Shown here piece after piece: positions 6,367-31,454 of a DNA stretch of 32,146 nt. Under the pieces are notes generated by a model, which saw nothing but the letters and a program-made list of their open reading frames with translations, was not told the origin of the DNA and searched no databases. Every line of letters starts with the position of its first letter. The stretch's first letter is position 1. The position numbers were made by a program, and so were the translations under genes. Source of the DNA: Rhodobacter sp. SGA-6-6 (GTDB lineage Bacteria > Pseudomonadota > Alphaproteobacteria > Rhodobacterales > Rhodobacteraceae); the NCBI RefSeq assembly GCF_011043545.1, contig NZ_JAAKGP010000020.1:1-32146 (forward strand), given 5' to 3'.

Positions 6367-7662
6367 CTACTTGATCTTCTTAAGTTCCTGAATCTCACGG
6401 AGCGCGGCGCGTTCAAACCGCTTGATCTGCTGAGTGATCTTTTCGTCACCACCGAATGCGGAGGCGCTGCGCCGTCCATAGGAAGAAAAATTTCGCACGA
6501 TCCGAACACCTTCGTCGTCACGCACCTTCAGGTGAGCGAACCGGCGATACAGGCGCTTGGTGTGTGCCTTAGTCGACGTTCCAGATGCAATATTTCGCTC
6601 GGCGATCTTGCGGGTCCGACGCATAGCTCTTTTCATCTTGCGCCACTGGCGAGCGAGGGAGCTTTCGCGAATTGCAGGCCCCGCCTCGTGGAGCGCGAAG
6701 CCAAGGTACTGTGCCGCTTTCCCCGCCACGGCGCCCGTGCCCGTAAACTCGGTCCTTTCGGTCTTGTGCGGAGAGATATCCAGCTTCTCTGCCTTGATGA
6801 GATCCATGATCTCTGCTTCGGCTGCTGCGGCGTGAGCAGGGTCGCAGATCACCAAGATGTCGTCCGAATAGCGGCGATACAGCGCACCGATGCTGTCGCA
6901 GAAAGCGCGTGCAGCCTTGTCGAAGTCAATCATGTATAGGTTCGACGCTGCTGCGCTGATGGGGGTGCCCTGAGGGATGCCTCGCCGATGCCCCTTTGCC
7001 AGTTCGGGGTTCGGGTGGAACTTGATGCCATTTGCCTTGAGTTCTTCGACGCTGGCGATCCGGTCCCGGCCATTCCCCTTGAGCCGGGAGGAGAACGTGG
7101 CGTTCGCCTTGAGTTCTTCCATATCGACGTAGTGGAAGGCGGTGATCGCCCGAAATACGCGCATCCAGTGTTCGGGCAGTGACGTTACGCCCAGCACTGC
7201 CTTCACGCGGCGCTTCAGGAGCGTGTGGTCAAGATTGTCGAAGAAGCTGCTGACGTCGAACGCCAAGATTGTGACGGGAGCATGGGTCTTGGCAAACGCA
7301 AGCACTTCCGCCGAGAAATCGTAGTTGCCGCGACCGAGGGCACGATAGGCCAGAACGCTATCGGACAGACCTGCGGCGTTATAATGGGCATCCAGCAATT
7401 TGTTTATTTCGCTGGCGTAGAACGAAAGTATGCAGGCGTCCCGGTGCGACGCATACTTGATCGGGCGGTCCTTCGAGGTGATCGTCCGTTTCCCGGTCAT
7501 CGGGCATTTCTTGTAGCGTTTCTCTGACTTCGTGTAGTGAAGCAGCGGGACAAACGAGTGCTCAATCACGAAGTTCGGGTCCATTACCTTCCTAGCGAAC
7601 TTCTCGCCAACGGGCAGATCGAAATGGCGGTAGCCTCTGGACTTAAACCAATCGAGCCGCAT
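6367..7662 (-). CDS. drt2: DRT2-type antiviral reverse transcriptase (UG2 clade)
   Basis: A 431-residue stand-alone reverse transcriptase. The N-terminus WFKSRGYRHFDLP is the family signature I know from DRT2, followed by PIKYASHRDACILSFYA and YRALGRGNYDF. Catalytic motifs are intact: motif A FDVSSFFDNLDH (136 is the Asp), RRGIPQGTPISAAASNLYM (226-244), and YSDD at 265-268 with its two Asp residues. A basic C-terminal tail rich in Arg/Lys probably binds RNA. In characterised DRT2 systems the enzyme copies an upstream non-coding RNA by rolling-circle reverse transcription into a concatemeric cDNA that encodes a toxic repetitive protein during phage infection. The start codon follows AAGGAGG at a 4-base distance. 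About 310 bp upstream of it carry no ordinary gene but show RNA structure and a neo-type unit (separate entries). Motif spacing argues against a group II intron maturase or a retron RT. Confidence 0.9.
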   Translation of the reverse strand: MRLDWFKSRGYRHFDLPVGEKFARKVMDPNFVIEHSFVPLLHYTKSEKRYKKCPMTGKRTITSKDRPIKYASHRDACILSFYASEINKLLDAHYNAAGLSDSVLAYRALGRGNYDFSAEVLAFAKTHAPVTILAFDVSSFFDNLDHTLLKRRVKAVLGVTSLPEHWMRVFRAITAFHYVDMEELKANATFSSRLKGNGRDRIASVEELKANGIKFHPNPELAKGHRRGIPQGTPISAAASNLYMIDFDKAARAFCDSIGALYRRYSDDILVICDPAHAAAAEAEIMDLIKAEKLDISPHKTERTEFTGTGAVAGKAAQYLGFALHEAGPAIRESSLARQWRKMKRAMRRTRKIAERNIASGTSTKAHTKRLYRRFAHLKVRDDEGVRIVRNFSSYGRRSASAFGGDEKITQQIKRFERAALREIQELKKIK

Positions 7663-7809
7663 TCAGCCTCCTTATCGCAGAGTTCGGAGGACTGGCCCTG
7701 ACCCTGGGCTCCGGTTTTTAGGCCGGGCGTCCCCCGAACGCACGCCACCTTCTGTCAGCGCATACGTTCAGCGTCTCACTTCCGAACGCCTCGCAGACAC
7801 GGGTCTCAA

Positions 7810-7938
7810 AACGCGAGGTGGTATAATGTAACCGTGGAGGTCCGAGCTATGCTCAGTGTCTCATTCCGTCTGGCTCTGGTCGCAGAGATGCTGTTCGGCA
7901 TCGTGCTGCCAGGTCACCATAAAGAGGTTGACAAGTTC
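7810..7938 (+). other. neo: Predicted neo repeat unit (rolling-circle cDNA, never-ending ORF)
   Basis: This plus-strand segment would be the cDNA strand of the DRT2 RNA. AACG occurs at 7810-7813 and again at 7939-7942, so head-to-tail joining there gives a 129-nt unit (43 codons). One frame is stop-free through the unit and across the junction; the other two plus-strand frames and the three minus-strand frames contain stops. Within the unit are TATAAT (7822-7827), GGAGGT (7836-7841), ATG (7849) and TTGACA (7928-7933). Only after joining does TTGACA lie 17 bp before TATAAT. In the unjoined locus the -35 position (7799-7804, ACGGGT) does not resemble a -35, so the promoter should be silent until reverse transcription. 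The repeat begins MLSVSFRLALVAEML and ends NVTVEVRA. The template locus itself is open from 7702 to a stop at 8038-8040. An ordinary 63-residue antisense gene is the alternative, but the misordered consensus elements argue against it. Confidence 0.75.
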
Positions 7939-7942
7939 AACG
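7810..7942. repeat. AACG microhomology marking the predicted template-jump junction
   Basis: AACG at 7810-7813 and 7939-7942 (CGTT on the RNA) is spaced 129 bp. In the RNA the 3' copy falls at the edge of the one-sided bulge inside stem 5, and the 5' copy at the base of stem 2. The reverse transcriptase would therefore have matching bases at both template borders, comparable to the short repeated motif used for jumping in characterised DRT2. Four bases alone could be chance; the weight comes from the exact 17-bp promoter spacing and in-frame length that follow. Confidence 0.55.
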
Positions 7943-7977
7943 GCCAAACCCGTGAGCCATTTCTCGCGGGCAGTCAC

Positions 7978-8006
7978 TATTTGGTGAGCAAGTTTCGGCA
8001 ATTCAA
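7978..8006 (-). promoter_or_regulatory. Candidate promoter of the DRT2 non-coding RNA
   Basis: Minus strand TTGAAT (8006-8001), 17-bp spacer, CAAATA (7983-7978), predicting a start near 7971, immediately before hairpin 1 of the RNA. The -35 lies inside an inverted repeat GGCAA-N7-TTGCC (8013-7997). The -10 is weak, so this is a moderate call. Confidence 0.45.
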
Positions 8007-8057
8007 GGTTGCCAAAAGACAATTTAGCCAACCCCGTTGATGCCGAGGGTACGAGAA

Positions 8058-9340: not shown

Positions 9341-10897
9341 CTAGATATAGAATTTGAATGGCTGCGGTCCGCCCTCCCGCGCCGAACCCATCACAAGGAT
9401 GTCGCCGACCATCTTCGCGAAGCGAACCGTTACCGGTAGCCCGTCGTTGAAGTTACACGAGTTGTAGTTAATCTTTGTCAGTCCCATGATGTCAGCAAGA
9501 ACCGTCCGCATCTCTGGTTGACGATGCTTTGAGCGCAAGATCGTCACCATAAGCGGGTTGGGTGTTTCAGGCCCGATATACGTATCCAGCTGTGGGACGT
9601 AGCCGCTCGTCCAAAGGTAGGCGTTCTTCTCGTCTAAGTTTAGGGCCGTTCCCCTGATCACAGGGTAGTCGCCAGCACGGAAGAGCTTTGCGTCACCACC
9701 CGTTGGCTTGATCCGAACGCCGACGACATTCGTCCCCTTCGGCGCCGTGCGACAGAAGGCATTCCACTCCTCGTCGTTGAATGACGCCTGCCCATGGATG
9801 AAGAGCTCCTTGGGCGGTTCGGAATGCAGCTCCCGATACGCTTCGATCACAGTCCCTAGAAGCTCTTCCGCGGCGTGAGCGTTTAGATGGTACTCGTACT
9901 CGCCTGTCTTCCAAGGGCCATTCGCGCCGCGGAACACCACACCATCGCCCTCACTCAGGAACATCTGCGCCGCGCAGCAGACGTGGTTGTCGCGGTTGTT
10001 CGGGAGGTTTTTGTAGACCATCCCGATGTAGCATACCCCTTCGCGCACGTTCGACAGCCTCCAGGGCGGCCGGTCCTGAGTCTTGTAGTAAAGCCCCGTC
10101 GCGATGTTCCACGCCACCGTCGCCGGGTCTTGGGTGGTTCGCTTGGGATAGCCCGCACTGTTGGTGAACGCTGTCGGCTCGAGGGTCGACTCGCGCAGGA
10201 TCTGAGATGGCGCGATCGAGAGCAAGGTCGCCTTAATGTGCCTACGGAAGTCGGGTATGTCGTCAAACACGTCCTCGATGCTCGGATCAAACCGTTCGTC
10301 CATGAAAAGGAACGACTGGGCTGACCTTGCGCGCTGCTTCTTGGGCGTTTTCCCGGCGACGAGGGTCAAACCGGTCCGCCTCGATTCCGGACGGCATCGC
10401 TCGTACACTATCTCGGGCACGACGAATATCCATACGTCGATCGATCCCTCTTCGTTGCGCCTGAATTTGTGGACGCGCTCAGTGTAGATACGGGCGACCG
10501 CATCGACGGCCTCGTGCATGTTCTGCACTCTCGTCGCGCGCTCGATGGCGTCGAACTCGACCGTCAGGGCCCTGAGCCGATCTGGATCGAACGTAACGCC
10601 GAATGTCTCTTCGAGCCCGGCGAAGTCCGCGAGATGAAGACGGTCCTTCTTCTCCGTCGGCCCGGGAGGCGGCACCTGTATCCCCGAAAGCAGCCGTCGG
10701 CTCCAAGAGCGGAAGTGGCCGATCCCTTCCGCCGTCCCGACAACCCCAATTCGAACCTCTATAGGCTTCCGTGGGCCGTCATGAGGTCCAAAGAGAAACA
10801 GGCCATCCTTTGGGTGGTGGCTCCTCTGGTCATGGCGGAAGTCGAGTTCTGGCTCATCCAAGTGATCTACGATCAAGCTTGCCTCGGGAAACCTCAT
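9341..10897 (-). CDS. Short prokaryotic Argonaute (MID-PIWI, catalytically inactive)
   Basis: A 518-residue protein with the layout of a short pAgo: an N-terminal [10 protein letters not shown] segment (32-41), a MID region around 150-260 ([19 protein letters not shown], where K222 and Q232 could contact the guide 5' end), and a PIWI region from about 265 to the end. The catalytic DEDX set is not kept: the first Asp position reads YIGMVY (residue 293 Met) and the second LFIHGQ. It is therefore expected to bind guide and target without cutting. In such systems target recognition activates the partner protein, here Mrr-TIR-APAZ. The genes overlap by four bases (ATGA, 10894-10897). A functional alternative is hard to see given the partner gene. 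Confidence 0.88.
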
Positions 10898-12843
10898 GTA
10901 ACGTCTCCTTCGGGCACAGCATCTTCGTCGTCAGCCCCTGGCCGACCGAGCGTGCTTTCGTCCTGCTCTTCGGCATCAGGGTCGCCCACGTCTGGAAGTG
11001 CGGTGCTGACCGGTGAGGTGAAGAGAACTGGCTCAGATGAAAGAAGCATTGCCTGGCCTGGAGCCAGCGAAACCCGAATGTAGGCTGAGTCGCCCGACAT
11101 GACCTGAAGAAATGCCAGAAGCCGCCCATGCCATTGCTTGTTGCGCCAACCCTTGCAGACCGATCTGCGAAGGCGGTGCATCTTCTTCGGGTCATCTATG
11201 CGTTCGCCCTGCTCTGTATCGTTGTCCTCCGCGAAAAGGACGCGCGCCTTCAGGCGGAAGTGCCAGAAAGGCCAGTTCCGAGGAATCGCTGTTACACCAT
11301 ACGACCAGACATGCTTTCGGGCGATGTTGCGCAGCATCGACGACCTGCGCTCGCCTTGCCGCCCCCAAGGTACCCGTTCACCAATCCCAACCTGAGTTGG
11401 GGACACATGGAAACCATCGCCGTTGGAATACGCGTAGGCGACCATTCCGATCTTCCTGCAGTGCCGTTCCCATCCATCGCGCAGCAGGCCCGTGAGCATG
11501 TTCGACAAATCACGCCCCGCGACACCGATCTCGGGCATTCCTTTATCCACCGCATCCACAACCGGCACAGATGTCCGCAGGCGCAACTTTGCCACTCCTC
11601 CGAAGCTTTCCTCAACATCAGGCGGCGTTGCGAAAGTAATCACGCCTCGCTCATACGCGACGGCGGGAAACGACAGCCCTTGCACCCGTCTCTTGAGGAC
11701 GCCGGTTTGGACCGCTCCCGTCGCCTCGTAAAAGTGGAGTTCATCGGGCATTTCCAATATCTGAATCCAATTCGAGACCAAGGACTCTGGCTCGCGCACC
11801 AGCGGAACAGCACCACGCTTTCGGAAGCTGTCCCATTGGGTTGCGACCGTGATGTTCTCACGACGGCACGTCACGTGTTGGCGGCGCAGCGTCTCGAGAA
11901 GCTTCGAGAGCCCTTCCGCCCAGCCGCTCGTGAAATCGGCAGGCGTCGCATCGCGGAGACCATCAATCTTGGCCCCCTCCTCGATCCGTAGCGGGATTAT
12001 CAAGCGAGCGTCACCAAGACTTGCGGCAAGCGTCTTCGCCCTGTCTATCAGATCCATAGCGTCTTCGTTGGCGCGAGTGGCCGCGCCCGCTACCGCCAGC
12101 ACCTTCGCAGCGCGGTGCTCCAGCGCCACTCCAATCTCCTTGTGCCATCTGTCTCCAGGCTCGAGGGTAAGGATCTCGGAAAAGACGCGATACCCATGCG
12201 CTTCGAGCTTTGGACCAAGCCATAGAATGAACTGGTCGTGGTCGGGGCGTGCTCCGACGAGGAACAGAGTATCCCTCTCCGCTTCCGCTTCAGCCTCCAC
12301 CTTGCTGCCTGTACCTGGCTTCGGAAGCAGCGCTTGAAGGATCGAGGGAGGCTTCACGCGGCCTTCGCGCTCATCCAACGTCTCATTAAGCATCCGCTTT
12401 AGGGTACGCCCGCTCGCGGGGGTCCATAGCCTGGGATGAGCCTCTTCGATGTCAGGATGAGCGCGCAGCAGCGCCTCGAGATCTTCGCGCCCAAAGATGT
12501 TTCCTGGAGAGCGGATCGCGGGGCCACATATCTCCATGAGGTCCTGCTTCCGTTGTGGGGTCATCGCTACAGACGTTGCCAAGATGTAGCGATCTGGCGC
12601 CAATTTATCGATCTTCGCTCGCTCCTTCGACATCTCACTCTTCAAAGCAGCGATCGCAGACCTTTCGTATCTCTTGGCTTGCAGGATAGTCAGGCTTTCT
12701 GCCTGCGGCGCGTGTCGCCCATCTATTCCACCATCGGCTCCTTCGCCGAATTGCTCAAAGCGAATACCTAGAGCACGACCGATAAGATCGGCTGAAAGCG
12801 CCTCGAACTCAGAGGGCGATAAGGCAGAGAAATCGACAGGCAT
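10894..12843 (-). CDS. Mrr-TIR-APAZ effector partner of the short Argonaute
   Basis: A 649-residue three-domain protein. Residues about 1-120 are an Mrr-type restriction endonuclease fold with a PD-(D/E)xK-like site, GADGGIDGR (D41) followed by LQAKRY (Q55-A-K57), and DRYILATS. Residues about 190-330 are a TIR domain: [31 protein letters not shown], with WHKEI giving E236 as the candidate NADase glutamate. The rest is the APAZ domain, which pairs with short Argonautes (for example [13 protein letters not shown] and the [14 protein letters not shown] block), and an acidic tail. In related SPARTA systems guided target detection drives TIR NADase activity and cell death; an added nuclease gives a possible second effector. 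The start has no clear Shine-Dalgarno, so translation initiation may be weak. Confidence 0.86.
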
Positions 12844-16386: not shown

Positions 16387-16449
16387 GACTTAACAGCTGT
16401 AAAGTCGCGCCGAACTTGATGATCGCTCCAAGAGACTTAACAGCTGTTA
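16387..16449. other. parS: Two parS-like palindromes downstream of repC
   Basis: GACTTAACAGCTGT occurs at 16387-16400 and 16434-16447. The first extends to GACTTAACAGCTGTAAAGTC (16387-16406), a 20-bp palindrome broken only at one symmetric base pair. The second contains the perfect palindrome TAACAGCTGTTA (16438-16449) that overlaps the repC stop codon. repABC replicons carry 16-bp-class palindromes of the GTT...GC...AAC type, bound by RepB for partition, close to the operon. These are the best candidates for that centromere here. Confidence 0.6.
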
Positions 16450-17670
16450 TGCAGCATTTCGCCGGGACATCAGCGCCATGACCATCGGCCCAGAGGAGAA
16501 CTCGCCCGCCGCTGCCTTGGATGTCAGCGCACGGAGGTAGCCACCGGGCGACCGGATGTCCGCAAAGCGTTCCAGCATAGCGACGACAACGATCGATGCC
16601 TGCTCGGGGCCCATGAACCGTTGCGCTTCTTCCCAAGCGGAAGCACTGATCCCCATGGCGGGCCGTACATGGCAAGCCGCGTCGAAAAGCTGATGCCAAT
16701 GGCGGATGTCGCCTTGGTAAAAGGTTTTGAGCGACGGGCAGCCAGCGATCACCAGATGGAGCGGGATCTTTGGCACGCGTCTTGTGTCCGCTTCTTCCAC
16801 GTCAGCACCAGGTGCATCCGTTTCAACATCTGGCGCGTCGGCCTCCGCCCCGCCTTTTTCCAAGGCAGGTTCAAGATCTATAGATTCTTTATTTGAATTA
16901 TGATGGTGGCGCTCAGTCTTGGCACCATTGGTGTTCATTTCTTCTGTTTCAGGGCCATCAATGACGTTGCGTGCGCGATCGAGAAGGGCTTCAAGGTCGG
17001 TCCGATATGCGGAGAGCTCCTCAAGCGTGAGCTTGCGGCGCAGGGCGCGCGCTGTGAGGACAGCCTTGTCGCGAAACTGATCCCAGAGGCCGAGGCCTGG
17101 CTGGACCTCTTCTCCGAACTCCGCCAGGGCAGCAAGATCGCGCCGCATCAGGCTCACGACCTCCCGCAGTCTCCGGACACGGTCCTCGGCCTCACGCACA
17201 GCCTCTGCGGCCCGTGCCACCTCTTCGGACCGGCAGTAGAATGGCGAGAGATCGAAGCCGAAAGCCACGCGCTCTTCGCCATGCTTGCGGACATACCTCT
17301 TCCCGTTGGGGCTATCGCGGCGCATGAGCAAGCCAGCGTCCACCAGGCGGGCAATGTGCCTGCGCATGGTGGAGCAGGGCATGCCATTCAGCCGCTCGCA
17401 GATCGCCTTGTTGGACGGGAAGACGACCATTTCAGCGTTCCCGCCAAGCGCATCGTCCGGGAAGAAGCTGAGAAGACCCTGCATGACCGTCAAATCACGT
17501 TCTGTGACCCCAAAGACCGCTTGCGCTTTGGACAGTTCGCGCAGGAGTTCCCACTTGTTGATGAGCTTACCCGGAACAGATACCTCAGGCCGCTCGACCA
17601 CGCGCAGATGGGCGTGCGAGATCGGCCGCATAAACGGCGAAATCGGTGTGTACTCCATGATGTCATTCAC
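16447..17670 (-). CDS. repC: Replication initiator RepC
   Basis: A 407-residue RepC. Family landmarks: YTPISPFMRPISHAHL at the start, KWELLRELSKAQAVFGVTERDLTVMQGLLSFFP, a winged-helix region (FPSNKAICERLNGMPCSTMRRHIARLVDAGLLMRRDSPNGKRY), and the C-terminal SPGGYLRALTSKAAAGEFSSGPMVMALM. RepC is the essential initiator of repABC plasmids and normally acts on an origin inside its own gene; an AT-rich block near 16866-16960 fits. The longest frame starts with GTG at 17670; an ATG at 17658 (MEYTPI) is an equally plausible start and neither has a strong Shine-Dalgarno, as expected for a gene controlled by an antisense RNA. Confidence 0.95.
   Translation of the reverse strand: MNDIMEYTPISPFMRPISHAHLRVVERPEVSVPGKLINKWELLRELSKAQAVFGVTERDLTVMQGLLSFFPDDALGGNAEMVVFPSNKAICERLNGMPCSTMRRHIARLVDAGLLMRRDSPNGKRYVRKHGEERVAFGFDLSPFYCRSEEVARAAEAVREAEDRVRRLREVVSLMRRDLAALAEFGEEVQPGLGLWDQFRDKAVLTARALRRKLTLEELSAYRTDLEALLDRARNVIDGPETEEMNTNGAKTERHHHNSNKESIDLEPALEKGGAEADAPDVETDAPGADVEEADTRRVPKIPLHLVIAGCPSLKTFYQGDIRHWHQLFDAACHVRPAMGISASAWEEAQRFMGPEQASIVVVAMLERFADIRSPGGYLRALTSKAAAGEFSSGPMVMALMSRRNAA
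16866..16960. other. AT-rich block inside repC, candidate oriV
   Basis: Within the GC-rich repC coding sequence the stretch around 16873-16906 (including CTATAGATTCTTTATTTGAA) is strongly AT-rich and encodes the linker between the two RepC domains. In characterised repABC plasmids oriV lies in an AT-rich segment within repC. The position agrees; no iterons were seen. Confidence 0.45.
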
Positions 17671-17708
17671 GAAGGCAAAATTTCCCTGGCCCGCGAATCG
17701 CTTTGCGC

Positions 17709-17832
17709 TTGCGGGAAAGGGGCCAGATCGCTACATTCAGAGGTGCGAAAACTGAGTTTTGTAGCGGGCTGGTCCCGTGCGAAACCTAAGAAAGGTCTCG
17801 TGAAGCTTGCTTCTCGGGGCCTTTTTCTTTTC
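17709..17832 (+). ncRNA. Antisense counter-transcribed RNA (incRNA) between repB and repC
   Basis: On the plus strand TTGCGG (17709-17714), 17-bp spacer, TACATT (17732-17737) predicts a start near 17744. A terminator hairpin follows: 17794-17806 pairs with 17809-17821 (13 positions, one mismatch, two G-U) and TTTTTCTTTT starts at 17822. The RNA of about 85-90 nt runs opposite to repABC in the repB-repC gap. This is the place and orientation of the ctRNA that represses repC and sets copy number and incompatibility in repABC plasmids. Confidence 0.8.
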
Positions 17833-17870
17833 TGCCTGTCTCGTGCCTCCTTTTTGGTTGTTGCTCTTCC

Positions 17871-18803
17871 TCAGTCTTCCTTGCGCTTCCAGCGCTCGTG
17901 AAGCTCGGCGATCAGCTGCGGGGCCTTGCCCTCAAGCCAGCTGACAAAATCTCTGTCCTCGGCCTTCAGCTCGAGCTTGAACTGTCGGCCGCGGCGCCCT
18001 GTCGCGATGGTTGCAGCCCCGACACCCGGAATGGCCACACTAGGTGCCCCTCGGGGGCTTGATGGGCGGGTCGGCCGCTCTGCCTGCACCACTGCGGCGA
18101 GGACGGCCAGGAACGCGGCGTCCGACTTTTCGTCAGGTCCACCGGAGTGAGAGGACCTGGTCTCTGCCGCTACTGCAGCGAGGTTCTCGCGGTCCACAGA
18201 TGCATCGCCCAGTGACTTCTTGAGTTCCTCCCAACGAGGCCGGCCGATACCTGGCGCAGCACCTATCGCTAGGACGAGGCTCTCGCCAACCGCGCGGACG
18301 ACGCTTAACAGCTGCGACACACCAGCTTCGGTAAGACCTAGAACCTCTGCCACGCCCTTGTTGGTGCGTTCCGCCTCTCCCAGGTGATCGCCATTGAGCA
18401 AGGCTGCCGCCACCAAGGCACGTTCGATGAAGCTCAGATCGCGGCGTTCTTGGTTCTCGAGCAGCTGATCCCGAAGCGCCTGATCCCCGTCCATTTCGGT
18501 GACGATCGCACGGACCTTGATCCCGAGATCCCGGCAGGCTTCAAGCCGACGCCGCCCGTAGATCAGGCTGTAGCGATCCCCTTCGAGAGGTCGCACGAGG
18601 ATCGGCACCCGTTGGCCACTTCTGGAGATCGATGCCTTTAGCCCCGCAATCTCGATTTGAAGACGGTCATCCAGCCTGCCCACGGTCTCGACATGGTCAG
18701 GCTCGATCTCGAACACGCCGCCCCGCAGCCTGCGCCCCTCAAGAGCGTCGGGGGCATTGCGCAAGGTCTGCAAGGGCAGTCCCAGTTTAGGCTTTCTTGC
18801 CAT
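17871..18803 (-). CDS. repB: Partition protein RepB (ParB family)
   Basis: A 310-residue ParB-family protein. N-terminal: MARKPKLGLPLQTL, then the ParB domain with KASISRSGQRVPILVRPLEGDRYSLIYGRRRLEACRDLG (GRRR box) and DQLLENQERRDLSFIERA. A helix-turn-helix follows: NKGVAEVLGLTEAGVSQLLSVVR. The C-terminal part is for dimerisation. It binds centromere sites (candidates at 16387-16449) and with RepA segregates the plasmid. I chose the ATG at 18803, which overlaps the end of repA by 17 bases, a normal coupling; the longer frame to 18854 lies inside repA. Confidence 0.94.
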   Translation of the reverse strand: MARKPKLGLPLQTLRNAPDALEGRRLRGGVFEIEPDHVETVGRLDDRLQIEIAGLKASISRSGQRVPILVRPLEGDRYSLIYGRRRLEACRDLGIKVRAIVTEMDGDQALRDQLLENQERRDLSFIERALVAAALLNGDHLGEAERTNKGVAEVLGLTEAGVSQLLSVVRAVGESLVLAIGAAPGIGRPRWEELKKSLGDASVDRENLAAVAAETRSSHSGGPDEKSDAAFLAVLAAVVQAERPTRPSSPRGAPSVAIPGVGAATIATGRRGRQFKLELKAEDRDFVSWLEGKAPQLIAELHERWKRKED

Positions 18804-19980
18804 TGCGTCCCCACGTGCTTTGGATGATCGCAGCGATCTCGTCGTTGACGGCATTCATGGACTCGATGGCGCGGTCGAAGGTCTGGCGCGTGAAGTCCTT
18901 CTTGTCCGCCTCATACAAGGTCTGCTTGGTCAGCCCTGCATCCGATATCGCCGTCGACTCGACCATGTGGTTGGTCAGCACCGAACGCCCGAAGAGCCCG
19001 CGGATGAAGGCGATCACCTCGGTTTGCGGGGCGTCGCCCACCTTGTAGCGGGTCGGCAGGAACCGGAGCCAATCGAACCGCAGGTTGGCGCCTGCATCGC
19101 GGATCACGCCCAGCAGGTCGGCCGTCATCCGCAGGAACTGAGACATGGACATGAGGTCAAGCATCTGCGGGTGGACCGTCACCAGGACGCCCGAGGACGC
19201 GGAAAGGGCAGACATGGTCAGGAAGCCCAGTTGCGGAGGGCAGTCGATCACGACGACATCGTAGTCACTTTCGACGCTGTCGAGGGCGTCTCGGACTCTC
19301 GCGAAGAAAGCGCGGGCGCCGCCACGCTGGATCGCGGCCGGGGTCTCGTGCTCGAACTCCATGAGCTCGAGATTGCCCGGAATGAGATCCAGGCCACGGA
19401 TGTAGGTCTTCCTGATGACCTCGGAAACCGGAACAGGGTCGTCATACCGGACTGCGTCGTACAGCGTCCCGCCTTCCATGAGGTCCAGTTCAGGCTGGAT
19501 CCCATGCAAGGCGGACAACGACGCCTGCGGATCCAGATCAATGGCCAGCACACGATAACCCTTGAACGCGAGTCTCTGCGCAAGGTGCGCTGATGTGGTG
19601 GTCTTGCCGCTTCCACCCTTGAAATTCACAACGGAAATGACTTGCAGCTCGTCGCCCTTACGACGGCCCGGCACGTACGTTCCCGGCTTCTTGGCGTTGG
19701 CCTCAAGGCTTTGTCTGATCTCCCAGACATCGTCGAGAGTGTAGCGGCGATGGCTACCGGCCGTCGTCTCAACGTCGGTGATCTTGCCTTCCCGATGAAG
19801 TTTGCGAAGGTAGGTATGATCGACACCGAGCAACTCGGCCGCCTCACCGCTCGTCAAACTGCGCATCACCTTCTTCGCATCGGGTGGAAAGTGCGCTGCA
19901 CGTTGTGCATGCAGGTTCGAAGCCAAGAGTTCGGCGTAGTGACCAATGGCGACGTCCAGGTCTTTGTCTATCTCGGTCAT
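18787..19980 (-). CDS. repA: Partition ATPase RepA (ParA family)
   Basis: A 397-residue RepA with an N-terminal winged helix-turn-helix of MerR type (SLTSGEAAELLGVDHTYLRKLHREGKI, about 41-67) used for operon autorepression. The ParA ATPase core has a deviant Walker A, KGGSGKTTT (121-129), followed by AIDLDPQASLS and DVVVIDCPPQLG. It pairs with RepB for partition and represses the repABC promoter. It is the first gene of the operon. The 5' region (19981-20100) has GCGCG-type inverted sequence around ATAAAAAT, a possible operator, but I could not fix the promoter. Confidence 0.95.
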   Translation of the reverse strand: MTEIDKDLDVAIGHYAELLASNLHAQRAAHFPPDAKKVMRSLTSGEAAELLGVDHTYLRKLHREGKITDVETTAGSHRRYTLDDVWEIRQSLEANAKKPGTYVPGRRKGDELQVISVVNFKGGSGKTTTSAHLAQRLAFKGYRVLAIDLDPQASLSALHGIQPELDLMEGGTLYDAVRYDDPVPVSEVIRKTYIRGLDLIPGNLELMEFEHETPAAIQRGGARAFFARVRDALDSVESDYDVVVIDCPPQLGFLTMSALSASSGVLVTVHPQMLDLMSMSQFLRMTADLLGVIRDAGANLRFDWLRFLPTRYKVGDAPQTEVIAFIRGLFGRSVLTNHMVESTAISDAGLTKQTLYEADKKDFTRQTFDRAIESMNAVNDEIAAIIQSTWGRNGKKA

Positions 19981-24511: not shown

Positions 24512-27500
24512 ATGCAGATTCTCTCGATCAGCGGGGAAAACATTGCGAGCCTCGCAGAGCCTTTTGCGATCCGACTCAATGAAGGACCTCTTTCATCTGC
24601 CGGCCTCTTTGCCATCACGGGAGAGACCGGTGCAGGGAAATCGAGCCTTCTCGATGCGATGTGTCTGGCCCTCTATGGCGACTGTCCTCGCCTTTCGGGT
24701 GCTGGCACTCGGGAAAGCGTCGAGGACGTCGATGGTCAAGAACTGAAGTCCAACGACCCCCGCATGGCACTTCGCCGTGGAGCTTCCAACGGTTTTGCCC
24801 GCGTAGTGTTCCGGGCGGTCGACGGAGAGGACTATGCGGCGGAATGGATGGCTCGCCGGGCGCGGGGAAGACTGGATGGGCGGCTGCAGGCAGTAGAGCG
24901 GAGCGTGATGCGGCTGTCGGACAAGCAGGTTCTCGCGACGCAAACCTCCATCGTGAACGAGCGCATCGTCGAGCTGACCGGTCTGACATATGATGAGTTC
25001 CGGCGGACAGTGCTCCTTGCGCAGGGCGATTTCGATGCCTTTCTCGTTGCAAAGACGGGTGACCGGGCTGCGATCCTCGAAAAGGTGACAGGCACCGAGA
25101 TCTATCGAGCGATCTCGCGGAAGGTCTTCGAGCGTTATGCGGAGGCGCGGCGCTCGCTCGACTCGCTCGAAACGCGGCGCGGCGAGCACAGGCTTTTGTC
25201 CGGGGATGAGCGCGAAGCCCTGTCCGCGCAGATTGGGGAACTGCGGGACCTCCAAACCCTGGATGGCAAGGAACTTCAGCGGATCTCGGCCGAGATCGCC
25301 GTGTATGAATCGCGGGACGAAGCCCATACGAAAGTCACCAAAGCGAGGCAGCGGGTGGCAACAGCGCAAACAGCGCTTGAAGACTGTGCAGAGAACCAAG
25401 CTTGGCTCAGGGAATGGGAAGGCGCGCGTGGCCTGCGCAGCGAGGTTAAGGAACGGGAAATCGCGGTCAAAGCTCTCGGCGATGCTTCAGCATCACGCGA
25501 TGACCTCATCATCAAACATGATCAGCAGGATGCGCTGGTGAAGGAAGCGAACGTCGCGGTGCAGACGGCAAAGGCCGATCACGACGCGGCGGAAGAGCTG
25601 TTCAAGAAGCTCGGCCCGGACTGGACACGCGCGACGACCCTCGATGGGAACATGAGGACCGCAGAGGGCGAATTACGGGATGCCGAGGCGAAAATCGCCG
25701 ATGCGGCCGAACAGGCAAGACAGGCGGATGCTGTTTCGCAGGACCTGGAGAGGGACAAGAAGGCGCTCGAGGCGGCTGTTGCGCGGGAGAGCGCCACCCT
25801 CGAAGCCGTCGTCGGCCACGAGACGTTGTTGGCGAACTGGACGATGCTCGAGGGTCGCCTTCAGGATCGTATCGAGGCGGCCACCAGCCTGGCAGCATGG
25901 TTGGTCGAGAAAGCGGACCTGACAGACTCGATAGCGATTGACGTCAAGACGAAGACGACCGCGCAGGACGCGATCAGGAGGGCCGACACTACCGTCACGG
26001 CTGCCCACGAAAGGCAGGATCAGGTTGCGGGTGAGCGCGAGGCGTTGAGGTCCGCTAACCCGTCCGCCAGATTGGTGCGTCTGTCACAAGCGGCGACGGA
26101 ACTGCGCGCTGTGCAGGGCGCTGATCGAGAGGTGGGCGCTGCACGAAGCGTGATCTCCGGGAGTGAAAGGAAGATCGCAGATGCGCGCGCACAGCTTGCC
26201 TTTGCGGTCGCGGCGAAGGCGATTGCGACCACAGAGGTCGAGGCCGCCCGGCAAAGGGTCGAAACGCTCAGGCGTCCGGTCGCCAGTGCTGCGGCCGCAG
26301 TCTCGGCCGAAGCTGCGCGCCTGCGGCAGCATCTCCGGGATGGAGAACCGTGCCCTGTCTGTCAGTCGCTCTCTCATCCTGTGATGCAGGACAGCGCCTT
26401 GGCGCAGCTTGCGGCCGAGCTCCGCTTGCAGCTTGAGACCGAAGAGAAAGCGTACTCTGCGGCGATGGACGCACTCCGAAACGCCGACGGAACAGCGGCC
26501 GAAGCCGAGAAAATTAGCGCCGAGGAGACGGCGATCAGGCCAGAGCTCGACAGTCGCCTCGCGAAGGCCATCGAGGCTTTCACCGAAGCGCGCGGCCTTC
26601 TGGACGGCACCGCTCTCGACAACCGGCTCCCGCGCGAGCCCGGTGTCGGTGATGTCGTATATGCGCAGCTTGTCGTGACGATCGGCGAGTGGCGCAAGAA
26701 GCTGGAGCAAGACCGGGACCGCCTCGAGGAGGTCGACAGGATTCATGACGACGCGGCCAGGGTGATCGATGCACAAGGGCGTGAGATTGCACGCCTTGAG
26801 GCACAGATCCGCGATCTTGATCAAAGGATGGCGGGATCCGGGTCAAGGATCGAGAAGCTGTCCGCGAATATCGAGACTGCAAGAACAGCGGTCGAGCAGA
26901 TCGACACCCGGGTCGGACCAATCCTCGCGGCGCTTGGCCGCGATGTGGAAGCGTTCGGCGAGGGCGCAGAGGACGTGCTAAGCGAGCTGCAAAGGGCCGT
27001 CTCCGACCTGACGGAGGCGCAGCGTCGCCTCACCGACTATCGGGCCCGGCTTGCAGAGCTGGGGCCCGACATCGCCCGAGCTGCGGCTGAGCTCGCAGTC
27101 GCAAGGCGTGCAGAAGCGGATGCCACGGCTCAAAGGGATGCGCGGACCAAGAACCTCCATGCTCTCAGAGAAGAAAGGGCATCGCTGCTGGGCGGTGAGC
27201 CTACGGAGGTGCACCGGACGCGGCATAACGATGCGCGAAAAGATGCGCTACTCGCACTCCAGCGCGTTGAAGCCACGGCCAGGCGCGAAGCGATCGTTCT
27301 CGCCGGCTTTGAAAGTGCGCTAGCCGCCGCTTGCCAGACCGTTGGTCAGGCTGAAATCCGTGCGAAGACCGCTGAGGAGGCGCTTTCGGCCGCGTGCGCT
27401 GCCGCGGGTCTGTCTTTTGAGCGCGTGATCGCACTTCACGCAGCCTCCGACGCAGAGGTCACTTCCCTCCGCGAACAGGTCCAAAAAGCACAAACTGAAA

Positions 27501-28243
27501 AGACCGAAGCCGACGGCGCGCTCAAGGAGCTTGAGTCTGCCTTGATTGCCATCGAAGAAAAGGGGCTTCCAGACAAACCTCGGGATGAGCTTGAGGCCCG
27601 CAAAGACGAGGTCAATGCCGCGGTCGAGAAACGGGCCCAAGAGATCGGCGGGTTGATCGAGCAGCAGTCAGCAGACCTTCAAGCGCAGGAAAGGTTGAAG
27701 GGCCTTGAGACCGAGATCAAGGAGGCCAGCGCGACCGCCGATACATGGCTCGCGATCAATGACGCCATCGGCTCTGCGAGCGGAGATCGCTTTGCCCAGA
27801 TCGCGCAGGCCGTAACCCTTGGCCTTCTCGTGGAGCGTGCGAATCTGCACCTAAGGGACCTCAAGCCACGGTACCAGTTGGAGGTCGCCGCGTCTGACCT
27901 AGCGCTTCTCGTCGTTGATCTCGACATGGCCGGTGATCGACGCACGACGCGCTCTTTGTCGGGTGGCGAGAGATTCCTTGTTTCTCTGGCGCTCGCTCTG
28001 GCCCTTTCGGGCATGGGGACACATCGTGCCTTGGCCGGTACCTTATTCATTGACGAAGGCTTTGGGTCGCTGGACTCCGATAGCCTCGATCTTGCCATTG
28101 ATGCCTTGGAGCGACTGCAAGCGCAGGGGCGAACCGTGGGCGTGATCAGCCATGTACAGGCAATGAAAGATAGGATCCCGGTTCAGGTCGAGGTGATCAA
28201 GACAGGCGGAGGGGCCAGCGAGGTTCGATTGAAGGTGGCGTAA
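24512..28243 (+). CDS. sbcC: Exonuclease SbcCD subunit C (Rad50-like ATPase)
   Basis: A 1243-residue SMC/Rad50-type protein. Walker A GETGAGKS (37-44), long heptad-rich coiled coil, zinc hook CPVC (614-617) at the apex, second coiled coil, signature SLSGGERF (S1150 region), and Walker [12 protein letters not shown] (D1181, E1182). The ATP-driven clamp controls SbcD nuclease activity. The length is slightly above typical SbcC (about 1050). Plasmid and island copies of SbcCD are less common than the chromosomal pair and may act against foreign or replicating DNA; that role is not proven by sequence. No defence-specific partner such as a JetD-like nuclease is in the operon. Confidence 0.93.
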
Positions 28244-28532
28244 AGAAAATGTTTGAAACGTGAAGATTCTTTTGATGGTCTTCGCCAGATTGGGGCAGTG
28301 TGCCTACGTCGCCGTGCTGTAGAGAAATCCCTTCTGATCGAGCATTCGGGGCGCTTAAGAGAAAGCAGGTTCTTGAATGAGTTGAGGCGTAACGGCTACA
28401 TCTAATGCTGGTTCAAAAAGTGCAGTCCTCTCTGGGTCGGTGCGGCAACGGATTAAGCCCGATTGGCGCGAACACCGTTTTGAGCGAGGTGTAGTCAACC
28501 GAGCCTGCCGTTTCGGCCACATTGCCGTTCCC
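28244..28532. other. Intergenic region after sbcC, no gene seen
   Basis: 289 bases with lower GC just after the sbcC stop. No clear terminator hairpin, promoter or gene was found. The region ends at the stop codon of the truncated gene copy described next. Confidence 0.4.
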
Positions 28533-28766
28533 TCATGATCGGACGATTTCTCCCGCCATCATGGCCCGCCCATGAACGGCGAGCGTCGCGATGAACCTTG
28601 GGCAGCCGAACTTCCGGATGACATCGAGAACGCGAGCCTTGTAAGCAGTTTGCCCGATGAGGCGTAGCATCTGGCGCGGCTCGATTCCCTGCCACCGGCC
28701 AGCCCGAATGAGGTAGAAGCCCGTCGGCTTATGTGGCCCCTCGCTTGCGTCCGTCGAAAGACGCAA
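28533..28766 (-). pseudogene. Truncated copy of the gene at the right edge
   Basis: A minus-strand frame ending RVLDVIRKFGCPRFIATLAVHGRAMM-GEI, closely similar to the C-terminus of the gene at 31784-32146. By my count 84 of 95 bases match between 28567-28661 and 31815-31909. Its N-terminal portion does not match, and no start with a ribosome binding site is visible, so it is best read as a 5'-truncated relic cut off by the region holding the AAA_13 ATPase gene. The function of the family is not known to me. Confidence 0.65.
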
Positions 28767-28768
28767 GC
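28743..28768. promoter_or_regulatory. 9-bp inverted repeat ahead of the AAA_13 gene
   Basis: GCTTGCGTC (28743-28751) and GACGCAAGC (28760-28768) form a perfect inverted repeat with an 8-base centre, ending 25 bases before the ATPase start codon. It may be an operator, a leader hairpin or the terminator of an incoming transcript; no T-run follows. Confidence 0.45.
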
Positions 28769-28793
28769 ATTCTCGCCTTACAGGAGAGAGAAA

Positions 28794-31454
28794 ATGGCCA
28801 AAGATCTGTTAGGTTGGGCCGCAGAACAGCCCGACTGGGTGAAGGACTGCCTGCGGCGGATCGCCATCGCGGCGGATTATTCAGTAGAGCAGGCGGACGC
28901 CGACTGCATCCTCGACAACGTGCGTGCCGCGGCGAGGGCTGCCTCGCCCGTTCACCCCATGATTTCCATCGATGCTTCACATATCGGAGGCGGATTTCGG
29001 GAGGCGCAGCGAACCGTGCTGGTGCAGCTTGGTCCGGTGCAGAACATCGACCGGCTCGCCGGTGACCAGAAGCTGCGCATGGCTGCAGTGGGTATCACAC
29101 TGGTGTATGGGGAGAACGGGAGCGGGAAGAGCGGATACACACGCATTGCCAAGCGGCTGTGCCGCAGCCTCACCGCGGACCAACTGCGGGGGAACGTCTT
29201 CGACCCCACCGGCGGGCCAATGCGGGTGCAGGTGCGTTATAAGGTCGGCGACGATGCGGTGACCGACATCGAGTGGGATCCCGCGACCCCCGCACCCTCG
29301 CAGCTCCGTCAGATTTCAGTTTTCGATAGTCACAATGCCCGACTCTACGTCGATGGCGAGAATAGGATCGCCTACCTTCCCCGCGAAATTGCGATCCTCG
29401 AGCACCATGGCGAACTGTGCCAGAGGATGGCCGCGAAGTTCTCCGAAGAAGAGAAGGCCCTCGCATCGCGGCTGCGCGTCCCGCTTCCCGCAGGCTACAC
29501 CTCAGGTAGCACTGTGTCACTGACGCTCGCTAAACTTCATCCAAAGGTTTCGTTGCTGCCGACAGAGGACGAACTTCGCGCGCTATCTGAACTTTCCAAG
29601 ACGGAAATAGAGGAACTCGCCCGACTGGAGGCAGAACTCGCAGCCGATCCTGTCGCCTTGGCTGCGACGCGCCGCCGCGCCGTCGCAGTCTTGAAGCGTG
29701 TGTGCGAAGTGCTGGGTAGCCTTCGAAGCGGGCTTTCGGATACTATTGGCGAGGCAATCGTATCCGCACGCCGGGAGCTCGTCCAGGCTGAGGAGGCTGA
29801 GAGGATCGCAGCATCCGCCAGCTTTGCGGACGAACCCGTCGCGAATGTCGGCAGCCAGGCGTGGCGGATTCTGTTCGAGGCAGCGCGCAAGTTTGCTGCC
29901 GCTGGAGCGGAGTCAGCGCCCGAGCGTCTGCCGGAGACGGCCGACGACCTTTGCCTCCTGTGTCTCGAGCCGCTCACCTCGTCTGGTGCCGACCGACTAG
30001 CGCGCTTCAACGATTTTGTGAGTGGGGAGGCCACAAAGCGCGCTGACGCAGCGCACAAAGCCCTTCAGGCGCTTCTTTCGCAAGTCGAGCAGGTCAAAGT
30101 GCCCGAGGTTGTGGTCGTGGAAGAGAGCCTAGCGGCCTACGGCCAACTCGACGCCACGCGTGCGGAAATCGTAGCCGAGATCATCAGGATCTTGCGCGAA
30201 TTCGAGACCAGGCGAGCTTCTCTGCTGGACGAGACGGCGAACCCGGCGCCCGCTCCGGATGTCGCCGCGCTCATCGCGACGTCCTCCGCCGAACTCGCCC
30301 GCCTAGAGGAGGAGGCCTCGTCGCTCCAACAAAGCGCCTCCCACACCCAAACGCTGGATGCCATGCGGGCGCGGCTCGCCGAACTCAAGGACCGGGCGAA
30401 GCTCGCGAACGACATCGAAACGGTCGTGCAGCGTCTTCGGGACGTCGGGGAGCAAAAATCGCTCGCGAGCTGCCAAACACAAGTAGCGACTCGTTCGATC
30501 TCAACGCAAATCACCGCCCTGCGTAAACAGCTCGTGACCGAGGAGTTGGAATGCCGGATAGCTGAGGAGATCTGCTCGTTCGACCTAAACCACCTCCCGT
30601 TCAAGGTCAGCGATTCGAGTTCGGGCGGCAAGAGCCTGTTCTCGGTGGGTCTTCACGGCGCCGGTGCCGTGAAGAACAACCAGGTCCTTTCGGAGGGTGA
30701 GCAGCGAGCGCTGGCGCTCGCCTGCTTCCTCGCTGAGATCGGAGGCTATGACCCGCGCTACGGTATCATCATCGACGACCCGGTGTCCTCGCTCGATCAC
30801 CTGCGCATTCGCAAGGTCGCCCAACGTCTCGTCGCCGAGGCGAAGAAAGGGCGGCAGGTCATTATCTTCACGCACAATCTGGTGTTCTTCAACGAGGTGG
30901 TGTCGGAGGCAGCTCGAGTCGGGGACGCTGCACCTCTGATAAAGTCGGTCGTGGCCAAGACCCAGTCCGAGGGATTCGGCGTGATCCGCGAGAACAGCGA
31001 GCCGTGGGTTGCAGACCTAAACGCACGGATTGATAGGTTGCGCAAACGCGCCACGGAGCTCAAGTCCGTAACGAACTTCGACACAGACGAATACCGCCGG
31101 CAAGCAAAGGATTTTTACTCGGACTTACGCGAATCTTGGGAGCGGGCCGTTGAGGAGCTTGTCCTTGCTAAGACCGTGGTGAGGTTCGTGCCGGACGTGA
31201 TGACGGGCCGATTGAAAGACGTTACGGTCACCGACGAAGACTACCGGATCATCTTCTTCGCGATGAAGCGAGCGTCCGAACGGTCAGGCCACGACATGTC
31301 TGCCGGTAGGGACATACCGCAGCCGTCCCCGGACGACATGGAGGCAGACCTGAAGATGCTCGACGATTTCAGGATCGAGCTCAAAAAGAGGAACAAGGAG
31401 ACCTCCGACAGGAGATCCGCGCTCGAGAACCCGGTAAGCGCAAAACTGATTTAG
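28794..31454 (+). CDS. AAA_13-family ATPase with CxxC motif (RloC/PrrC-like)
   Basis: An 886-residue ABC/SMC-type ATPase. Walker A GENGSGKS (106-113), paired coiled coils around a CLLC motif (C387, C390) resembling a small zinc hook, signature LSEGEQRALALACFLAE (from 632), Walker B IIIDDPVSSLD (658-668) and H-loop FTHN (H694). The C-terminal domain has LRESWERAVEELVL and ends with a conserved-looking ERSGHD (H833). This layout is that of AAA_13 proteins such as RloC and PrrC, which couple an ATPase to a tRNA anticodon nuclease. I cannot confirm the nuclease triad, so RNase function is inference. The ATG at 28794 follows AGGAGAGAG; the longer frame to 28731 is rejected. It stands alone between two copies of a gene segment. 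Confidence 0.82.
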   Translation: MAKDLLGWAAEQPDWVKDCLRRIAIAADYSVEQADADCILDNVRAAARAASPVHPMISIDASHIGGGFREAQRTVLVQLGPVQNIDRLAGDQKLRMAAVGITLVYGENGSGKSGYTRIAKRLCRSLTADQLRGNVFDPTGGPMRVQVRYKVGDDAVTDIEWDPATPAPSQLRQISVFDSHNARLYVDGENRIAYLPREIAILEHHGELCQRMAAKFSEEEKALASRLRVPLPAGYTSGSTVSLTLAKLHPKVSLLPTEDELRALSELSKTEIEELARLEAELAADPVALAATRRRAVAVLKRVCEVLGSLRSGLSDTIGEAIVSARRELVQAEEAERIAASASFADEPVANVGSQAWRILFEAARKFAAAGAESAPERLPETADDLCLLCLEPLTSSGADRLARFNDFVSGEATKRADAAHKALQALLSQVEQVKVPEVVVVEESLAAYGQLDATRAEIVAEIIRILREFETRRASLLDETANPAPAPDVAALIATSSAELARLEEEASSLQQSASHTQTLDAMRARLAELKDRAKLANDIETVVQRLRDVGEQKSLASCQTQVATRSISTQITALRKQLVTEELECRIAEEICSFDLNHLPFKVSDSSSGGKSLFSVGLHGAGAVKNNQVLSEGEQRALALACFLAEIGGYDPRYGIIIDDPVSSLDHLRIRKVAQRLVAEAKKGRQVIIFTHNLVFFNEVVSEAARVGDAAPLIKSVVAKTQSEGFGVIRENSEPWVADLNARIDRLRKRATELKSVTNFDTDEYRRQAKDFYSDLRESWERAVEELVLAKTVVRFVPDVMTGRLKDVTVTDEDYRIIFFAMKRASERSGHDMSAGRDIPQPSPDDMEADLKMLDDFRIELKKRNKETSDRRSALENPVSAKLI

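Follow-up and report, generated by a model that had tools for sequence, protein, structure and literature searches.

The closest described system is DRT2/neo of Klebsiella pneumoniae, and the locus described here shares with it a single reverse transcriptase (RT) gene, an upstream non-coding RNA (ncRNA), a short repeat flanking the template, -35 and -10 boxes that stand at 17 bp only across the join, a stop-free frame with a ribosome-binding site in a unit divisible by three, and a 5' handle hairpin (PMC11100668, PMC12039810). In the available text of one study of that system, ACA motifs flank the template, and it is the junction that creates the promoter, with a 17-bp spacing; the units of 42 close homologs are all divisible by three and open, several of them 111 or 129 nt long, and breaking the homology between the ACA copies abolished defence (PMC12039810). 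For divergent DRT2 clades, other mechanisms were left open because Neo annotation was 'more challenging' there (Tang preprint, PMC11100668). DRT10 is likewise a defence RT that makes tandem-repeat DNA with an associated ncRNA, but its synthesis is described as protein-primed, and the available text names no neo gene (PMC12632851). In the open-licence literature we found nothing on DRT2, Neo or its ncRNA in Alphaproteobacteria or Rhodobacter, where supplementary tables may list the clade already, nothing on RT-13 RNA, RF03017 or 'UG2 reverse transcriptase', and, among the matches listed for DRT2 and microhomology, nothing on variety of the joint.

Our locus lies in a 32,146-nt stretch of DNA from Rhodobacter sp. 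SGA-6-6, here called the window. By its sequence, the 431-aa product of the gene at 6367-7662 (minus strand) is an RT of the DRT2 (UG2 defence RT) family: it matches PADLOC Drt2 (PDLC03757, E 3.3e-129) and the solved DRT2 chains in the PDB (E 7e-60 to 2e-57), carries a YSDD motif in our alignment A1, and scores 382.1 bits against NCBIfam NF041746, 8 bits under the cut-off of 390 and so a narrow miss of one curated equivalog model. In the RT tree, the window's clade comprises 13 rows (L069, L070, L024, L025, L071, L072, L018, L021 and five near rows) and is separate from the Klebsiella type with branch support of 100/100; the window RT is 31-32% identical to those of K. pneumoniae-like (Kpn-like) loci L035, L036, L038 and L039. 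PADLOC, the PDB-chain matches and the tree all agree with the assignment to DRT2 made in an earlier note from the letters of the window alone. At another locus (L022/L023, G420), a DRT2-like RT is divided over two reading frames and is possibly a decayed copy.

A structured ncRNA is found directly upstream of the RT gene on the same strand, with a conserved extent in our alignments of 7677-8008 (minus strand; 5' end approximate). Its 3' part (7677-7745, minus strand) is a member of the Rfam family RT-13 (RF03017; 81.8 bits, gathering score 69.1), the only family to reach its gathering score in the window, which RT-12 does not. RT-13 also matches in seven of the eight distant clade loci (L018, L024, L025 and L069-L072) and was not found in L021, whereas RT-12 is found in Kpn-like L035 and in L027. 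In the window, the RT-13 part is likely the RT-binding scaffold. The Rfam model spans only 67 nt, and the template, the jump motifs and the neo frame all lie outside it. A 5' handle hairpin (7949-7970, minus strand) lies just outside the first jump motif and is backed by covariation: both sides are changed in 17 cells, where shuffled alignments gave 5.9, with a score of 0.463 against 0.184, a value reached in 0 of 500 shuffles. The predicted template is located between scaffold and handle. A stem resembling SL2 (CACGGGT/ACCCGTG) around the template was dropped since, in relatives, its 5' half belongs to the handle hairpin.

The template is bracketed by identical motifs, read as AACG on the plus strand at 7810-7813 and 7939-7942, 129 nt apart, and as CGUU in the RNA. 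Jump motif 2 (7810-7813, minus strand), just 3' of the template, is where the growing end of the cDNA is predicted to land, and GCGTT is invariant there in 14 of 14 aligned loci; jump motif 1 (7939-7942, minus strand), the 5' end of the template, is kept in 13 of these 14, L069 having TGTT and L021 standing outside this alignment. On the plus strand, the window carries a -10 box TATAAT (7822-7827), a Shine-Dalgarno-like GGAGGT (7836-7841) 7 nt ahead of an ATG at 7849, and a -35 box TTGACA (7928-7933), the wrong order for a promoter. Joining 7942 to 7814 yields a 129-nt unit, the predicted template and cDNA repeat (7814-7942, minus strand), with a perfect TTGACA-17-TATAAT promoter that reaches into the next repeat and a single stop-free frame of 43 codons. 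This predicted Neo frame runs from the ATG to the join (7849-7942, plus strand) and is completed by 7814-7848 of the next repeat; the remaining two frames of the strand contain stops across the joined unit. In the 32-kb window, the plus strand has TATAAT twice and the minus strand lacks it; TTGACA occurs five times on both strands combined. The earlier note had placed each of these elements correctly to the base, and its join, with the 129-nt length, the 17-bp spacing and the open 43-codon frame, is confirmed.

Requiring the published ACA/TGT joint fails for the window's clade, and the scan for joins was therefore made motif-free. We took the 500 nt ahead of the RT gene, listed all pairs of repeats of at least 3 nt with a spacing of 84-219 nt, and scored each by the promoter formed across it. 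The AACG join ranked first of 562 pairs, with 0 promoter mismatches against 2 for the next best; among the joins with 2 mismatches, one (108 nt, 18 bp) is likewise divisible by three and open. In 400 dinucleotide shuffles of 450 nt, a perfect promoter was formed at no join, and one with at most 1 mismatch at some join in 4/400. Adding a 17-bp spacing, a repeat of at least 4 nt, a length divisible by three and an open frame left 0/400 shuffles at up to 1 mismatch and 2/400 at up to 2.

We consider it very probable that the locus consists of a DRT2 RT gene and an RNA template whose head-to-tail copying makes a promoter and an endless stop-free frame. The families of RT and RNA, the scrambling of the elements, the geometry of the join, its conservation and the excess over shuffles are directly computed. 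The steps that follow, from priming and the jump at CGUU through the second strand, mRNA and protein to growth arrest, we infer from the K. pneumoniae system (PMC11100668, PMC12039810). The RT would bind the RT-13 scaffold and start cDNA synthesis at the template's 3' side (7814), copying up to the CGUU at its 5' edge (7942), just before the handle hairpin. The AACG at the cDNA end would then re-anneal to the second CGUU (7810-7813), and restarting there would give 129-nt repeats. Upon phage infection a second strand would be made, every junction would become a TTGACA-17-TATAAT promoter driving mRNA, and translation would yield a hydrophobic Neo of 43-residue repeats, with growth arrest as the likely outcome. 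The alphaproteobacterial Neo repeat, promoter and junction put forward in the earlier note are thus supported by sequence, and the biochemical steps stay predicted. The locus differs from that of K. pneumoniae in its joint, AACG (RNA CGUU) rather than TGT (RNA ACA), so that the ACA-1/ACA-2 jump motifs are not found, and in its scaffold, which is RT-13 in the window and RT-12 in L035.

Comparison with relatives had been proposed in the earlier note, and the AACG junction, the 17-bp promoter spacing, the 129-nt length and the open frame are kept in all 16 readable close relatives (L001-L012, L014, L016, L059 and L063; RT 85-99% identical). The boxes are perfect in 14 of them, with TTGACG in L009 and L010. 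These units are nearly identical and so add little independent evidence; L016 appears to repeat L008, and L009 and L010 are two contigs of one assembly. Three loci were left out: L013, whose contig begins inside the RT, L032, with the upstream end missing, and L076, with a masked upstream region.

The eight distant clade members (L069, L070, L024, L025, L071, L072, L018 and L021; RT identity 47-57%) keep the layout of the join in form, down to 47% RT identity. Units of 129 nt are found in L069 (joint AAC), in L070, L024 and L025 (AACG) and in L072 (AAACG); the others are 123 nt in L071 (AAACG), 120 nt in L018 (TCAACG) and 66 nt in L021 (ACA). Across the clade, joints are therefore AACG-like or ACA and not the published TGT. 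The earlier note had counted a broken frame or absent -35 and -10 elements in homologous loci against its own reading. At the chosen joins, all 13 clade rows parse as a unit whose length is a multiple of three and which has a single open frame, and the frame is broken in none; the boxes are less well kept, the -35 and -10 together having 3 mismatches in each of L018, L070 and L071 and 2 in each of L024 and L072. The unit upstream of the RT in L021 (G113:C1), with TTGACC-17-TATAAT and 22 codons, is the smallest predicted neo unit that we observed. GenBank annotates 'hypothetical proteins' antisense to the ncRNA in L024 (1177-1305, minus strand; Rhizobium) and L025 (1171-1305, minus strand; Neorhizobium), and both begin at the predicted neo ATG by hand count.

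We also assessed the phase of the frame and the joint across DRT2. An open join was picked in 25 DRT2 loci; each of them has exactly one open frame, and its phase is the same in 25/25: the -35 translates as hydrophobic-Asp-x, and the codon seven residues further on begins at the first base of the -10, giving Tyr in 24 loci and His in L018. Only L070 among the 25 was picked using phase as a filter, and 15 further loci (L022, L026, L028-L031, L034, L060, L064-L068, L074 and L075) stand outside this table. Kpn-like control loci have the same phase as the window. A test using the joint (at most 1 mismatch, 17 bp, divisible by three, open) was passed by 13/28 diverse loci, against 6/1120 shuffles and 0/28 opposite strands. 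In a joint-blind version, run on 38 DRT2 loci, the best -35/-10 pair alone implies the unit. Nineteen loci, some of them related and hence not all independent, had a unique pair with at most 1 mismatch; 17 of the implied units are divisible by three, and 16 are open only in the fixed phase. The joint is a match of 2 nt or more in all 16 and of 3 nt or more in 12. The failures are L024 (124 nt), L030 (120 nt, not open) and L028, which has perfect boxes at 17 bp and an implied unit of 145 nt that is not divisible by three. Of 2280 shuffles, 118 had a pair, 40 of these were divisible by three and 3 were open only in phase, none of which shared 2 nt at the joint; opposite strands gave 3 pairs, 0 of them open. 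Random diagonals share at least 3 nt in 18% of cases and at least 4 in 5%, so that a joint of 3 nt counts for little by itself.

The Kpn-like loci L035-L039 served as positive controls. Against the solved K. pneumoniae enzyme, the RT of L035 gives E 8e-163, and the published 117 nt was recovered in 5/5, with TGT as the top joint in four and tied with CAA in L036. Outside the clade, joints include ACC, ACG, AGG, ATCT, TAATA, TAATACT and TGT. Upstream of the RT, L042 and L043 have perfect promoters; the joint is TAATACT (7 nt) with a 150-nt unit in L042, and TAATA (5 nt) with a 147-nt unit in L043. In the window's bacterial family, other DRT2 types (L061, L062 and L064-L068) have a joint different from the window's; that of L061 is readable as TTT or ACG, and an earlier parse of L062 as 114 nt with ACA is unsure, since a 141-nt unit with a 2-nt match came out ahead in the joint-blind scan. 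Within the family, L029, L064, L066, L067 and L068 form a separate DRT2 clade; upstream of the RT they have template gaps in threes, a box like TGGTATGTT or TGGTATGAT and only a 2-nt joint; a unit of about 111 nt is found in 3/5, two of them tied with another pair. No convincing unit was found in the Calothrix loci (L026 and L031), L028 or L030. Searching viral contigs with the window RT alone gave 0 relatives; alignment A1 gave 26 loci, of which 10 were scanned (L033 with 272 nt upstream only), L040 was dropped and 15 partial matches were left out, and alignment A2 added 0 new loci.

Repetitive cDNA might be made with its joint at another short repeat, giving a different product or frame. Microhomologies of at least 3 nt are common, as the 562 pairs attest, and some other DRT2 loci offer 2-nt matches only. 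Promoter strength alone picks a pair other than the claimed join in L018, L024 and L070; the claimed join is second in the list for L018 and emerges in L070 only with the frame phase as a filter. In the window, however, the 129-nt join is alone in having a perfect promoter, and its placement recurs: the end of the joint lies 9 nt past the -35 and 8 nt short of the -10 in 14/24 parsed loci (9 in the clade and 5 outside), as against 6 and 11 nt in the Kpn-like controls and 4 and 13 nt in L027. We regard a different joint as unlikely.

The -10 box is of the extended form (TGGTATAAT, starting at 7819). Extended -10 promoters can sometimes act without a -35, and the claim that the promoter is formed only by concatenation is thus strongly but not absolutely supported. 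Neither box has a partner in the genome, with 4-6 mismatches upstream of TATAAT at spacings of 15-19 and 4-6 after TTGACA; even so, transcription could leak from the extended -10 where the copy is unjoined. This would allow an ordinary antisense gene, in which the box drives a 63-aa genomic ORF from the ATG at 7849 with no rolling circle. The genomic ORF does continue beyond the template, and the Rhizobium and Neorhizobium loci have their annotated antisense ORFs. Such a gene would lack an upstream -35, the TG of the extended -10 is absent in L069, L024 and L025, and an antisense gene would leave unexplained both the exact 17-bp placement of TTGACA across the join and the length divisible by three and fixed phase in relatives, all of which makes this reading very improbable. 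That the system is a decayed DRT2, with its parts present and no longer working in its host, we give hardly any credence, given an intact 431-aa RT with its YSDD motif, perfect promoter boxes and units identical or near-identical in close relatives of other named genera.

Under the preferred reading of a gene built by head-to-tail copying, the predicted Neo repeat is MLSVSFRLALVAEMLFGIVLPGHHKEVDKFNARWYNVTVEVRA. Seven 129-nt clade units were compared, those of the window and L009 being almost the same; the predicted frame is open in 7/7, and each other of the six frames is stopped in at least 5. The predicted Neo has a hydrophobic core (P = 0.03 against composition shuffles), and a codon-position test found position 2 not significantly slower (P = 0.21). 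Against L024 and L025, 24 codons changed non-synonymously and 4-6 synonymously, which indicates that the Neo sequence itself is not tightly kept.

Other genes of the window include a pair at 9341-12843 (minus strand), adjoining DRT2. One product resembles short Argonautes (PADLOC pAgo_I, E 1.5e-210); its partner of 649 aa, encoded ahead of it, combines a TIR domain with an Mrr-type nuclease domain (PADLOC Aga_TIR, 1104 bits). DRT2 and this short Argonaute/TIR pair look like a small defence island. RepC, RepB and RepA of a repABC replicon (16447-19980, minus strand) make the window plasmid-like, and the carrier is likely a plasmid of an alphaproteobacterium. The stretch 24512-31454 (plus strand) encodes a 1243-aa SbcC/LmuB-like ATPase and a 907-aa protein, the latter from the phage-defence candidate family PDC-S06.

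From the clade parses with their differing joints, together with the joint-blind phase result, the locus appears to be a DRT2 variant whose joint is re-spellable between clades. We think it fairly probable that this holds DRT2-wide, each clade having its own jump word of 2-7 nt while the 17-bp spacing, a length divisible by three (66 to 150 nt) and one frame phase are fixed. This suggests that the RT needs matching ends at a set place and no fixed jump sequence. A clade outside the Klebsiella type parses cleanly once the ACA motif is dropped as a requirement, and the joint-blind rule predicts neo units in several further DRT2 clades, naming exact junctions that can be checked by sequencing. 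The RNA family RT-13 gains a predicted function. If this reading is true, genes would be built by the same mechanism in the divergent DRT2 clades, the alphaproteobacterial branch would have RT-13 as its scaffold, and the DRT2 of L021 would build its gene from a unit of 22 codons.
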